Below are positions 21,440 to 46,255 of a DNA stretch of 64,000 bases, in pieces (position 1 is the stretch's first letter; the number at the start of each line of letters is the position of its first letter). The stretch is from Deltaproteobacteria bacterium. Lineage in GTDB: Bacteria > Bdellovibrionota > Bdellovibrionia > Bdellovibrionales > JAMPXM01. The notes under the pieces are model-generated. The model saw only the letters and a program-made list of their open reading frames with translations, did no database searches and was not told the origin of the DNA. The position numbers and the translations under genes are program-made. The stretch lies in assembly GCA_017302795.1 (NCBI GenBank), contig JAFLCB010000003.1, positions 338,650 to 402,649 on the forward strand, given 5' to 3'.

Positions 21440-22831
21440 TTAGTTAGGTATAGTGATCGTGATTTTAACTTGGCCCGGTCCGCTCTCTATCGCGCGGTTG
21501 CAGAGATCGCAAACAGGCGCGACCGTTGGAATCGTGCCCATCACGGGTGGGGCATAAATCGGAACCACCGGCATTGATGGGAGAGCAGGACTTAGGCCTG
21601 GTGCCTTTCCCAAATCACCAGCGTCGATCATCGAGCCACCGGGAATGCTGCTTGGAGACCGCGGTGGTGGTGCGGCCGGCGGCCCGGACGGTGGACCAGC
21701 GACCGGCCCCTTTTTGCCATCACCGGCCCCGCCAGACCCCGAACCAGTCGTTCCGCCGGAGCCAGATGTGCCACCGGCATTTCCGCCTGTCGCCCCAGAA
21801 CCACTACCTGAGCCGCTATTGGACTTCCCGTCCTTGTTATCTTTGGCGCCATCTCGCGGTTGGCCATCGCCGCGATTGCCAGCGCGGTCCTTTGCGCCGT
21901 CTTTGTTCTCTTTTGTACCATCTTGCTGTTGACCATCGCCGCGATTGCCAGCGCGGTCCTTTGCGCCGTCTTTGTTCTCTTTTGTACCATCTTGCTGTTG
22001 ACCATCGCCGCGATTGCCAGCGCGGTCCTTTGCGCCGTCTTTGGAGCCATCTTTTTTATCATCTTTATTGTCGCCGGTTGCTGCTTCTTGATTTTGAGCT
22101 GGCGAATTAGACCCGTTATCTTTCGAGCCAGTTGCGACGTCGACTTTTGTGTCGACGTTCATTTTTTCCATCTCACTCGTCGGGACTGATTTTGGGGGAG
22201 CGGGCGGCGCGCCAGGCAGAGCCTCTGTTTTTTGATTGGGCCCAACCGAAACCGGATTTAAAATAGTGCCGTTCGCTCCAAGGGTTCCGACATCTACGCG
22301 CCCCTTAAACGTTACGATTTCGGATTTGCTGTTCATGCGGTTGAAGCTGGTCAGGAAGTCTGTTCCCCGTACACCTGCGACCGCACTTTTTGTTTTCACT
22401 TGAAACGCGTTCGCTTGTCCGTCTGCGGCCTTGTCGCCGTACATGTTCTCTTCTTTTGTCGCAGCTCGTACTTTTCCGTAGAGCACGTTCAACATGACCT
22501 TTTTCTTATTGTCGGCCGGTTTGTACTCATACTGCTCAAGTACAATTCTAGATTCAGGCGAAACGTTTAGCTCGTTGCCGTCTTCCATCACGATTTTTGC
22601 TCGCGATTGTGGACCCGCGACGATCGCATCGCCTTGGCAAACTTTTGTGCCTTTTGCCGCGACCGTTGAGGCCTTTGTCTTAACGTTCTCAATTTTCACA
22701 TCACCCTTGGCGACAGAAACTTCGCCGCAGGCTGCATGTGCATGGTTGGAGCCTATCGCGCTTGTTGCGCCGAAGGCGAACACTGCAAGCACTGCTGCTG
22801 TCCAAGGCTTCACCGTTAGTAACATCGCCAT
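21440..22831 (-). CDS. Exported FecR-domain protein with variable-type repeat region
   Basis: A 463-residue protein with a signal peptide (about 1-33, ending NHAHA) and a FecR-like domain at about 35-200 (GDVKIENVKTKAS, VCQGDAIVAGPQSRAKIVM, SAVAGVRGTDF). A low-complexity half follows: near-perfect 23-residue repeats of the DGAKDRAGNRGDGQQQDG type at residues 264-323, a Gly/Ser-rich stretch, and a Pro-rich stretch. The C-terminal VCDLCNRAI contains a CxxC. This is not the TonB-linked anti-sigma FecR: no membrane anchor or sigma gene is present. It resembles periplasmic or surface FecR proteins of deltaproteobacteria. It lies upstream of, and is likely co-transcribed with, the TPR/beta-barrel gene. 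Confidence 0.82.
   Translation of the reverse strand: MAMLLTVKPWTAAVLAVFAFGATSAIGSNHAHAACGEVSVAKGDVKIENVKTKASTVAAKGTKVCQGDAIVAGPQSRAKIVMEDGNELNVSPESRIVLEQYEYKPADNKKKVMLNVLYGKVRAATKEENMYGDKAADGQANAFQVKTKSAVAGVRGTDFLTSFNRMNSKSEIVTFKGRVDVGTLGANGTILNPVSVGPNQKTEALPGAPPAPPKSVPTSEMEKMNVDTKVDVATGSKDNGSNSPAQNQEAATGDNKDDKKDGSKDGAKDRAGNRGDGQQQDGTKENKDGAKDRAGNRGDGQQQDGTKENKDGAKDRAGNRGDGQPRDGAKDNKDGKSNSGSGSGSGATGGNAGGTSGSGGTTGSGSGGAGDGKKGPVAGPPSGPPAAPPPRSPSSIPGGSMIDAGDLGKAPGLSPALPSMPVVPIYAPPVMGTIPTVAPVCDLCNRAIESGPGQVKITITIPN
21864..22042 (-). repeat. 69-bp in-frame tandem repeat inside the FecR-domain gene
   Basis: Units begin at 21864, 21933 and 22002, giving an exact 69-bp period with about 2.6 copies and almost no divergence between copies. 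Because 69 is divisible by 3, gain or loss of a unit would lengthen or shorten the protein by 23 residues without a frameshift. The units encode a hydrophilic Asp/Lys/Gly/Asn-rich linker. Confidence 0.92.
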
Positions 22832-25918: not shown

Positions 25919-26620
25919 GTGAACTTCGTCTTTAGGGCACTTACCAAAGCTACTTTACTCGTCGTTACGTTTTTCTCGCTTACCGGTTCTGCGAGCGCGC
26001 AGGAGTACGTCGAATTTCTTATTGGTGACCGAACCGAAGAAACTCGAAAATGGGGCCATGTTTCTTTGCGAGTTGTAACGGGCAGCCAAGACCATATTTT
26101 TGATTTCGGCCGGTATGGTCGGATGTGGGGAAAACGCGATGCCTCAGAAGGCGAACCTATTCTGCGAGTTTGGAAAAAGGGGAAATACTCGACCTACAGG
26201 AATCTCCATCTTAAAGATGGCGGGACGACAAAGCGTTACCAATTTGTTTCTAATCCTCAACGAAGCGCTAAAATTTTGGACTACTTCGCGTCGATGACCA
26301 AGGGCGCGCCACTTCAGCTTTCGAATTCAAGCTTTGATGCCTATGTTGCCAACTACAAAACTTTTCATGCGGTCGACGTGAACTGCACGACGGTTTCTAT
26401 CGACGCTTTTGAAAAGGGATTTCCTGAATATCGGCTTCACCAGCCTAACTACTCTATCGGGCGCGATCTCGGATTTATTCTGAAGGGTGCGGCACAAGCG
26501 AACGGTCAATATGACTCTCAAGAAATGAACTGGCCGCGAGTGTGGTGGCCGCTTGATTTAATGGCGTTGCTCGAAGAGCAGTATGTCAGATCCGGACAAG
26601 CGCGGGTTCTTGGACTTTAG
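25919..26620 (+). CDS. Exported protein, possible permuted papain-like (NlpC/LRAT-fold) enzyme
   Basis: A 233-residue protein with a clear signal peptide (about 1-28, ending GSASA). The mature part has a strand-His motif KWGHVSLRVV with His47 and a downstream VDVNCTTVSIDAF with Cys156. The His-before-Cys order is that of circularly permuted papain-like folds. The conserved-looking FDFGRYGRMWGK and WPRVWWPLDLM add to an enzyme-like appearance. The family link is inference; a hydrolase of peptidoglycan, lipid or amide bonds is possible. GTG start at 25919 with AAGGAAA upstream. It stands alone between a terminator and a repeat array. Confidence 0.7.
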   Translation: MNFVFRALTKATLLVVTFFSLTGSASAQEYVEFLIGDRTEETRKWGHVSLRVVTGSQDHIFDFGRYGRMWGKRDASEGEPILRVWKKGKYSTYRNLHLKDGGTTKRYQFVSNPQRSAKILDYFASMTKGAPLQLSNSSFDAYVANYKTFHAVDVNCTTVSIDAFEKGFPEYRLHQPNYSIGRDLGFILKGAAQANGQYDSQEMNWPRVWWPLDLMALLEEQYVRSGQARVLGL

Positions 26621-26625
26621 GAAAT

Positions 26626-26655
26626 AAAAAAGGCCGAGAGCCATAACTCCCGACC
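26626..26655 (-). terminator. Terminator for the minus-strand histone-like gene, beyond the repeat array
   Basis: On the minus strand the arms GGTCGGGAG and CTCTCGGCC pair over 9 bp (two G-T wobbles) around a 6-nt loop and run into TTTTTT. It lies past the 63-bp repeat array, so transcripts of the histone-like gene would carry the four repeats in their 3' untranslated region. Confidence 0.65.
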
Positions 26656-26662
26656 TCTGTTA

Positions 26663-26914
26663 GTAACGCTTCTTCGCGCAAGCGCTTCAGAAGCTGTCGA
26701 GCGTGCAGTGGCGCGCTCGAATTTAGTAACGCTTCTTCGCGCAAGCGCTTCAGAAGCTGTCGAGCGTGCAGTGGCGCGCTCGAATTTAGTAACGCTTCTT
26801 CGCGCAAGCGCTTCAGAAGCTGTCGAGCGTGCAGTGGCGCGCTCGAATTTGGTAACGCTTCTTCGCGCAAGCTCTTCAGAAGCTGTCGAGCGTGCAGTGG
26901 CGCGCTCGAATTTA
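26663..26914 (-). repeat. Four tandem 63-bp hairpin repeats behind the histone-like gene
   Basis: Units start at 26663, 26726, 26789 and 26852 (period exactly 63 bp, total 252 bp). The first three appear identical and the fourth has minor changes (GGTAACG, AAGCTCTTC). Each unit contains arms TCGAGCGTGC and GCGCGCTCGA around an AGTG loop (for example 26697-26720), plus a second self-complementary stretch around AAGCGCTT. The array fills the space between two genes and ends 1 bp before the stop codon of the histone-like gene at 26916. The same hairpin recurs at 30127-30389 and, with altered stems, at 46047-46068 and 46040-46157. Confidence 0.95.
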
Positions 26915-26915
26915 T

Positions 26916-27431
26916 CTAGACGTAACCTTCGTCATCGTCTTCTTCGTCGTCGTCTGTACCGAATCCGCCGGCGACTGTGTCGTCGTCTTCGTCGTCGAAA
27001 TCGTCGGCTTCTTCATCAGTTACAGCTTTTACTGGACCGTCATTCTCGTCCATCTCGTCTTCGCCCAAGCCGGCGTCTTCAAGATCGAGAGCAGAATCCA
27101 TGTCGAGTTCATCTGACTCGCTGTAAGAAGCGGCTGGTGCTCCCGGTGGCAGCTTCTTGACTGCTGGTACTGGTTTCTTCGTCGCTTTTTTAGCTGCAGG
27201 CTTCACTGCGGCTTTCGCCGTCGCTTTTTTAGCTGCAGGCTTCACTGCGGCTTTCGCCGTCGCTTTTTTGGCCGGAGCTTTTTTAGCCGTTTTTTTAGCG
27301 GGTTTCGCTGCTTTCTTAGTCGCTTTTTTCGCTGGCTTTTTCGCGGCCTTTTTAGCCGTTTTTTTAGCGGGTTTCGCTGCTTTCTTAGTCGCTTTTTTCG
27401 CTGCTTTTTTTGCTGGTTTTTTCTTCGCCAT
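26916..27431 (-). CDS. Histone H1-like lysine/alanine-rich protein with acidic tail
   Basis: A 171-residue protein. Residues 1-105 are built from AAKKxAKK and KPAKKTAKK repeats, as in bacterial H1-like DNA-binding proteins. After a Pro-rich joint, residues 115-171 are strongly acidic (DDFDDEDDD, DDDEEDDDEG). The basic half should bind DNA or RNA; the acidic half could mask it or bind partners. The coding DNA itself contains direct repeats (two 39-bp copies near 27180-27258 and two longer copies near 27284-27410). The ATG at 27431 is chosen because GGGGGAG lies 8 nt before it. The stop codon abuts a hairpin repeat array. Confidence 0.82.
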   Translation of the reverse strand: MAKKKPAKKAAKKATKKAAKPAKKTAKKAAKKPAKKATKKAAKPAKKTAKKAPAKKATAKAAVKPAAKKATAKAAVKPAAKKATKKPVPAVKKLPPGAPAASYSESDELDMDSALDLEDAGLGEDEMDENDGPVKAVTDEEADDFDDEDDDTVAGGFGTDDDEEDDDEGYV

Positions 27432-28431: not shown

Positions 28432-28711
28432 TCAATCTCCTCTACCTACGATGCGTGGTACGTTGAACAGATCGGACTGCTGGCTGCAATCCTAAAGTCT
28501 AAATCTTTGGAATCATTGAGAATAAATTAGACAGTTTTCGATGAAATTTTTCGGACGCGGTCGCCGGGCATCTGCATTGCGGAAAGCGGCCCGCGTTTGT
28601 TCACTCTCTCTACAGGACCCACGGTCACACTAACAATCGTCACAAGATTGTGACGATTTACTATCAGTATAAAACCTCGCGTGGTTCGAGCGCGCAACTG
28701 CACGCAAGCGC
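28432..28711. other. Intergenic region upstream of the lipoprotein gene
   Basis: No gene is seen. It holds the promoter side of the lipoprotein gene, a perfect inverted repeat at 28635-28658, and at 28684-28711 a degenerate, opposite-orientation copy of the hairpin repeat (TTCGAGCGCGCAACTGCACG). Confidence 0.5.
28635..28658. promoter_or_regulatory. Perfect 11-bp inverted repeat, probable operator
   Basis: Arms AATCGTCACAA and TTGTGACGATT with a 2-bp centre (GA). The tiny centre argues against an RNA hairpin and for a binding site of a dimeric regulator. The half-site TCACA/TGTGA resembles CRP/FNR-family half-sites, but the arms point inward rather than in the usual TGTGA-N6-TCACA order. Confidence 0.55.
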
Positions 28712-28747
28712 AAAAAAAACCGCGATCTCGTTTTAAGAGATCGCGGT
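28712..28747 (-). terminator. Terminator of the flagellin gene
   Basis: On the minus strand: AACCGCGATCTC, short loop, GAGATCGCGGTT followed by a run of eight T, 30 bp after the flagellin stop codon. Confidence 0.92.
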
Positions 28748-28776
28748 TGAGACATTACTAGAACTTTAAACAGATC

Positions 28777-30126: not shown

Positions 30127-30389
30127 GCGCGCTTTGCGCGCTACTATTTGTACCGGTTTTTCGCGCAAGCGCTTCAAAACCTGTCGAGCGTGCAGTGGCG
30201 CGCTCGAATTTCGCGCGCCACAGGCGCATCCGAGCTGTTGCTTGTACCGATTTCTCGCGCAAGCGCTTGGAAACCTGTCGAGCGTGCAGTGGCGCGCTCG
30301 AAACGCGCGCTTTGCGCGCTACTGTTTGTATCGGTTCCTCGCGCAAGCGCTTCAAAACCTGTCGAGCGTGCAGTGGCGCGCTCGAATTT
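30127..30389 (-). repeat. Three tandem 85-91-bp copies of the hairpin repeat behind the hydrolase gene
   Basis: Copies span about 30127-30211, 30212-30302 and 30304-30389. Each ends with the same block: CGCGCAAGCGCTT, a short variable part, CTGTCGAGCGTGCAGTGG, then CGCGCTCGAA. The arms TCGAGCGTGC and GCGCGCTCGA with an AGTG loop are invariant. Each copy begins with another GC-rich palindrome of the GCGCGCTTTGCGCGC type. The array ends 11 bp before the hydrolase stop at 30401, in the same orientation relative to that gene as the array at 26663 has to the histone-like gene. Confidence 0.93.
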
Positions 30390-30400
30390 TTACTCCTTAA

Positions 30401-45940: not shown

Positions 45941-46015
45941 GCCCATGTGGCTCAGTGGTAGAGCACGCCCTTGGTAAGGGCGAGATCGGGGGTTCGATTC
46001 TCCCCATGGGCTCCA
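45941..46015 (+). tRNA. tRNA-Thr (anticodon GGT)
   Basis: A 75-nt gene. Acceptor GCCCATG / CATGGGC, anticodon stem GCCCT/AGGGC with anticodon GGT, T-loop GGTTCGATTCT, and an encoded CCA. The order Thr-Tyr-Gly-Thr is that of the thrU-tyrU-glyT-thrT cluster that precedes tufB in E. coli; here tuf is 16 kb away. Confidence 0.97.
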
Positions 46016-46039
46016 TTACGTCGTTACGTCCTCCGGCCT

Positions 46040-46157
46040 TCACTGCTTTTCGTGCAGTGGCGCGAAAAGATTTTGGAGCTGCCGCTCCTGGTTTTTACGG
46101 CTCGGGTGAGCCTCGTTCGTTCGACGCTCTCACCCTCGTTTCGCGCAGTGGCGCGAA
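46040..46157 (+). repeat. Two single AGTG-loop hairpins between the tRNA cluster and zwf
   Basis: The second hairpin is at 46140-46157 (arms TTCGCGC and GCGCGAA, loop AGTG). The first is at 46047-46068: arms TTTTCGTGC and GCGCGAAAA around AGTG, 9 bp with one T-G pair at the same position as in the big arrays. Loop and inner bases match the arrays at 26663 and 30127; the outer stem bases differ but stay complementary. Confidence 0.75.
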
Positions 46158-46255
46158 TTGAATTGGGCAGGTCGTTGACCGATCAAAGTGGTAGAGATAC
46201 TTCATCAGAATACAAAATTTTTGCAGAGCGCTTCATGAAAGATTCGGTGAGTAAG

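Follow-up and report, generated by a model that had tools for sequence, protein, structure and literature searches.

A tandem hairpin array beside a histone H1-like gene belongs to a genus-specific family of REP-like repeats that tend to follow stop codons

The tandem array lying directly behind a histone H1-like gene in the 64,000-nt stretch of Bdellovibrionales DNA analysed here (the window) is best read, with moderate confidence, as a recent local amplification of a dispersed, genus-specific and composite REP-like repeat of about 60 nt. The 5′ end of this repeat tends to fall 0–3 nt past native stop codons or 3–4 nt past the CCA ends of tRNAs, and it would be transcribed as a 3′-UTR hairpin that tunes the upstream gene and would spread in trans. 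The array looks recent, REP-like and gene-independent because the family is scattered in the genus and its copies often lie directly after stops or tRNA ends. It is the stop-anchored polarity of this wider family that is the result worth keeping; the histone-centred reading of the initial annotation fails beyond simple position. A one-gene curiosity thus turns out to be part of a repeat family that spans the genus and follows a sharp rule of position.

The array at the histone-like locus and its relatives in the window

The array consists of four 63-bp units (252 bp, 26660–26911), extended by ATT to 26914, and TRF gave it a score of 496 (4.0 copies, 98% matches); identity to the unit is 100% in three of the four copies and 97% in one. 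The features of the region are collected in Table 1. The initial annotation had placed the array 1 bp past the histone-like stop codon, with a same-strand terminator beyond it, and both statements hold, a single base intervening before the TAG and a minus-strand hairpin with a U-tract being found on the far side. Its description of four near-identical hairpins is right as to the units but not as to the hairpins, since each unit folds into two (A, then B), so that the array holds eight. Folding the minus strand of the array region gives −140.7 kcal/mol (shuffled sequences, −106; z −6.9), and in the whole-array fold neighbouring units also pair with one another. Open reading frames within the 63-nt units are presumed to be composition effects.

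Table 1. Coordinates of the array, its neighbours and related elements in the window
Feature	Coordinates	Strand	Remarks
Convergent 233-aa gene, no assigned function	25919..26620	+	Stop 43 nt before the 5′ end of the array on the family sense strand
Terminator-like hairpin of histone-like gene	26629..26658	-	13 pairs, 4-nt loop, U-tract; also in the array-region fold
Array unit 1	26660..26722	+	Hairpin A CGCTTCTTCGCGCAAGCGCTTCAGAAGC, then hairpin B TCGAGCGTGCAGTGGCGCGCTCGA
Array unit 2	26723..26785	+	Identical to unit 1
Array unit 3	26786..26848	+	Identical to unit 1
Array unit 4	26849..26911	+	97% identical; 3′ end (ATT to 26914) 1 nt from histone-like stop codon
Stop codon TAG of histone-like gene	26916-26918	-	Base 26915 alone separates it from the array
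Histone H1-like gene, Lys/Ala-rich, acid tail	26916..27431	-	ATG at 27431
Degenerate element or hairpin-B fragment	28682..28762 (hairpin fragment 28690-28705)	-	Downstream of flagellin stop; weak, 14.8 bits
Second array, three related units	30143..30390	+	30143-30212, 30243-30302, 30321-30390; adjoins alpha/beta-hydrolase stop
Diverged element	46011..46074	+	Conserved part from 46019, 3 nt past CCA end of tRNA-Thr (45941-46015)
Second diverged element, longer	46092..46165	+	Downstream of the element at 46011

A minus-strand transcript should contain the array, because it lies between the stop codon and the likely terminator. The view of the array as the 3′ UTR of the histone-like gene is therefore sound as regards the order of stop, array and terminator; what does not survive is the notion that this is special to that gene, given the second array and the tRNA-adjacent members. 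Judged by the polarity of the family, the sense strand of the array is the + strand, antisense to the histone-like gene. On that strand its 5′ end lies behind a terminator remnant and more than 3 nt from a same-strand stop (Table 1). The histone-like gene itself has no Pfam match, and the NCBIfam model hist_H1_lk_Burk scores far under its cut-off; the gene carries internal tandem repeats of 39 and 69 bp (27170–27428), the make-up of which varies among the homologues in three congeners. Another in-frame repeat of the window, a 69-bp unit present 3.1 times at 21828–22043, gives 23-residue repeats (KDGAKDRAGNRGDGQQQDGTKEN) inside a 463-aa minus-strand gene.

The second array lies 3.2 kb from the first and its units are 86–90% identical to the first-array unit in a DNA search of the own genome, which also returned partial copies elsewhere. 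Its middle unit is found whole with the covariance model R1 and only as a fragment (30283–30296) with the model R2 (both described below). The 3′ end of the flagellin gene bears a clear element in the congener G003 and a weak remnant in the window. An Rfam search of the window returned five tRNAs only, the arrays matching no Rfam family above its gathering score.

A two-hairpin family with species-specific cores

The comparison covered the own genome (G000), four congeners (G001–G004) and eight further family genomes, 13 in total. In a wider set of 59 genomes, the own included, DNA matches to the unit at E≤0.001 were confined to the own genome and the congener G002. R1, which represents the window subfamily (11 sequences), gave 24 matches at E≤1 in G000, 33 in G002 and 0–1 in each of the 11 other family genomes. 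R2 was built from 16 elements that comprise no unit of either array, one row being the tRNA-adjacent element of the window; it recovers both window arrays on the + strand (E about 1e-11 to 1e-7, whole units at 40.5 to 28.5 bits) as well as the two elements downstream of the tRNA. At E≤0.1, R2 matches number 62 in G000, 65 in G002, 25 in G004, 15 in G003 and 8 in G001, with 0–4 in each of the eight other family genomes.

Exact copies of CGTGCAGTNGCGCG, the apical core of hairpin B, number 26 in G000 and 10 in G002, the reversed control giving 0 and 1; five of the 57 other genomes have one or two. Five of these six outside matches (L106, L107, L110, L111 and L112) have 0–1 arm pairs and the sixth (L109, in G012) is clipped. 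The outer parts of the element (TGTCGC...GCTGCT...AGATT) are common to the family, while G004 and G003 have a different core in hairpin B; taken together with the R2 counts, this indicates that the family is genus-wide and its cores species-specific. A phage origin of the repeat was considered and rejected, the two patterns tried having no exact match in viral_contigs.

The paired structure is underlined by both-sided changes, found in 7 of 19 pairs in the R1 subfamily (11 sequences) and in 10 of 19 pairs in the general family (39 cells, 16 elements); sliding the partners leaves far fewer such cells in both cases, at most 8 in the general family. The arms that flank the core in G000 and G002 differ in sequence yet still pair (TTTC/GAAA, TTTT/AAAA, TCGC/GCGA, TCGAG/CTCGA), and ahead of the core there is mostly a second hairpin, itself with exchanged arms. 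At one core pair G.U is found in 29 rows and A.C in no row, the remaining pairs being G.U 22 times and A.C 15 times. This ratio of 29 to 0, together with the orientation of the elements with respect to genes, favours action as RNA rather than as DNA; the elements may yet act as single-stranded DNA hairpins because the bias of G.U over A.C is clear at that one core pair only and slight elsewhere.

Two variants in G000 are recorded here for their structure. L195, L210, L219 and L220 represent a longer form, in which the two family hairpins are separated by a further one (CTCGGGTGAGCCTCGCTCCTTCGAAGCTCTCACCC or similar). In the other, a 146-aa ORF has two hairpin-A-like copies at its 3′ end that partly overlap it, possibly in frame (L008:1490-1620, G000:C7).

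Polarised placement after gene ends and turnover between congeners

Placement was scored on 89 clusters from G000, G002 and G004, which are most of the R2 matches listed (G001 and G003 stand outside the tally, and at least G002:C6, G002:C88:12061, G002:C106:52405, G004:C4:152514 and G004:C19:1-117 were left out). Four clusters (L034, L040, L044 and L046) had been added in the knowledge that they abut stops, and the figures to use are those of the 85-cluster set from which they are removed. Genes were taken to be non-overlapping long ORFs of 80 aa or more, called without a gene finder, so some stops will have been missed and some ORFs will be spurious. In the 85 clusters, the 5′ end lies at −3 to 3 nt from a same-strand stop in 33 cases (32 at 0–3 nt, one overlapping the stop by 3 nt), at 4–15 nt in 7 and farther away in 15, while 23 follow a gene start and 7 have no gene in view. 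When both neighbours are known (43 clusters), 26 are at 0–3 nt past the stop, whereas elements placed uniformly over these intergenic spaces would give 2.46, and none of 100,000 simulations exceeded 11; with the four preselected clusters included the count is 30 of 47. No such preference is seen between the 3′ end of the element and a convergent stop (2 of 38 observed, 2.5 expected), and gene starts give 1 of 19 against 0.5 expected. The copies are thus polarised and tightly placed after gene ends, on the evidence of these counts. Anchoring varies between species, reaching 26 of 45 clusters in G002 (the four preselected ones included), 10 of 31 in G000 and 1 of 13 in G004, and the 37 stop-adjacent clusters among the 89 follow 18 TAG, 13 TAA and 6 TGA codons. 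Three elements begin 3–4 nt past the CCA end of a tRNA (window 46011, L205 and L267), and in G004 the same tRNA cluster bears elements at a different place (L261).

Comparison of congeners shows rapid turnover and lineage-specific positions. In G002, DNA polymerase I (...WQDAH) and PurH (...RHFRH) end directly before an element, and their orthologues in G000, G001, G003 and G004 have ends that are alike or nearly alike and lack the element in eight out of eight cases. The possibility that insertion creates the stop codon was therefore rejected, these C-termini being native with or without the element. Orthology between genomes was seen for only one pair of the 44 upstream proteins whose stop lies ≤15 nt from an element. 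At the histone-like locus the array is absent from all three syntenic regions examined (G002, G003 and G004), although the gene there ends in the same residues (TACGTCTAG or TACGTTTAG, minus strand) and is followed by a terminator-like hairpin. G002 and G004 also have a bidirectional terminator and the convergent 233-aa gene, which was not found in the G003 stretch examined. The + strand U-tract and spacer of G002 and G004 are missing in the window, where the array occupies their position.

Possible action, known systems and rival explanations

The family probably acts as a transcribed 3′-end hairpin, many copies presumably coming first among the structures of a 3′ UTR. By analogy with E. coli REPs, a hairpin beginning about 4–7 nt past the stop would lie under the terminating ribosome and could slow its release and, once exposed, would block 3′ exonucleases; through these two effects the element would tune the upstream gene without carrying gene-specific information. 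For the minus-strand histone-like gene, the array would be a passenger in antisense orientation, adding about 250 nt to the 3′ UTR. Spread would depend on some enzyme acting in trans, and tandem growth could occur through slippage or unequal recombination. A more far-reaching version, speculative and rather unlikely in our judgement, would make these elements a class of stop-anchored two-hairpin RNAs, in which a trans-acting system of the genus places or keeps them behind stops and tRNA CCA ends in one orientation, a species-specific partner recognises the fast-evolving apical core, and terminating ribosomes and RNA 3′-end processing come under genome-wide control.

The family is filed as REP-like in the broad sense, each genome carrying many intergenic copies of a short imperfect palindrome, and as a new composite variant that is neither a CGTC nor a GTAG REP. 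In the literature returned by a search on palindromic repeats in Bdellovibrio and Bdellovibrionota, only a Sinorhizobium sRNA survey turned up. The CGTC-tagged superfamily has an unpaired CGTC/TGTC tag at one end, an 8–9 bp stem starting with two A-T pairs, a short CCA tail, a predominance of head-to-head dimers, a location near ORF 3′ ends and no dedicated transposase, and the predator Micavibrio carries one of its families (Di Nocera, De Gregorio and Rocco 2013, PMC3733652). The new family resembles it in being made of short palindromes in many copies near ORF 3′ ends with no dedicated transposase found. The tag gives a mixed picture: an unpaired CGTC/TGTC precedes the stem in most diverged copies, most of the 89 clusters having YGTC at columns 9–12 (C at column 12 in 87), but the window units lack it and read TAAC or TACC. 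However, the first pair of the stem is G-C in 15 of 16 elements and the second C-G in 9 of 16, hairpin A is followed by TGC rather than by a CCA tail, and multi-copy clusters are mostly head-to-tail (the window arrays of four and three units, L205, L206, L208 and L261, with an opposed pair in L263). It further differs in joining two covalently constant hairpins and in starting 0–3 nt past the stop with one polarity.

For mechanism, the closest counterpart known is found in E. coli REPs near stop codons, which the RepRanger paper, reporting earlier work, describes as stalling ribosomes when within 15 nt of the stop (PMC12306157). REP/BIME elements are, in that account, likewise palindromes just past stops with a proposed action on the terminating ribosome, but the spacing in the new family is tighter, no RAYT link was found and no sequence relation was seen. 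With the RAYT-mobilised GTAG REPs and REPINs, the family shares dispersed imperfect palindromes and the presence of Y1_Tnp genes in the same genomes; it differs in having no GTAG in its consensus and in that the Y1 genes are not clearly repeat-flanked in nine of ten loci. If the placement at 0–3 nt after native stops arises by targeting, it points to a novel insertion mechanism, and if it is kept by selection it offers a clean natural test of REP-like hairpins on terminating ribosomes, outside enterobacteria and among relatives of predatory bacteria.

Several other explanations have to be weighed against a dispersed, stop-anchored 3′-end hairpin. The position of the array, 1 nt from the stop and ahead of the terminator, would suit a 3′-UTR device dedicated to the histone-like gene, and the roles offered by the initial annotation included stabilisation of the mRNA and binding of the gene's own basic product. 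Neither finds support as a gene-specific role: the same gene is array-free in three of three congeners, on which ground a histone-specific device was rejected, the family also follows unrelated genes and tRNAs, and the array is antisense to the polarity of the family, in which the end tied to stops is the opposite one, on the opposite strand. We regard a dedicated device as very improbable. That the elements are intrinsic terminators or parts of them might be suggested by their strong GC-rich hairpins at gene ends, by the last array unit, which scores as a terminator-like site on the + strand, and by the replacement of the + strand U-tract of the bidirectional terminator by the array. However, at least five T within 8 nt past hairpin B were found in 14 of the 89 clusters only, the histone-like gene retains its own terminator past the array, and some copies lie inside a tRNA cluster (L261). 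Termination was accordingly rejected as a general role, and this explanation is, on the whole, quite unlikely. As for integron attC sites, no GTTRRRY end was seen in the elements.

The remaining alternative sees selfish REP-like DNA without host function. A Y1 (RAYT-type) HUH transposase would move it by recognising the hairpins in single-stranded DNA, and gene ends would just be where insertions survive. Many copies, species-specific cores and non-orthologous positions would all be expected of such DNA, genes with a Y1_Tnp domain are present in 12 of the 13 family genomes, and one of them, a RAYT-like gene of 225 aa in G002 (C45:7705-7935; L067:677-1354), lies between two family elements within L067:333-1536. 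Nevertheless, clear elements occur in the examined flanks of just one of the ten Y1_Tnp loci checked (G000 and G002), which led to the rejection of RAYT flanking, and copy numbers do not track, G001 having 13 Y1 matches for 8 elements and G000 3 for 62. There is moreover no GTAG tag, and tolerance alone leaves the one-polarity pile-up at 0–3 nt unexplained. Purely selfish mobility is therefore a possible but doubtful account of the family. Separately from the family elements, a run of GGGGATCGGGGATCC-like repeats was noted upstream of a Y1_Tnp gene in G000 (L030:730-840, C6).
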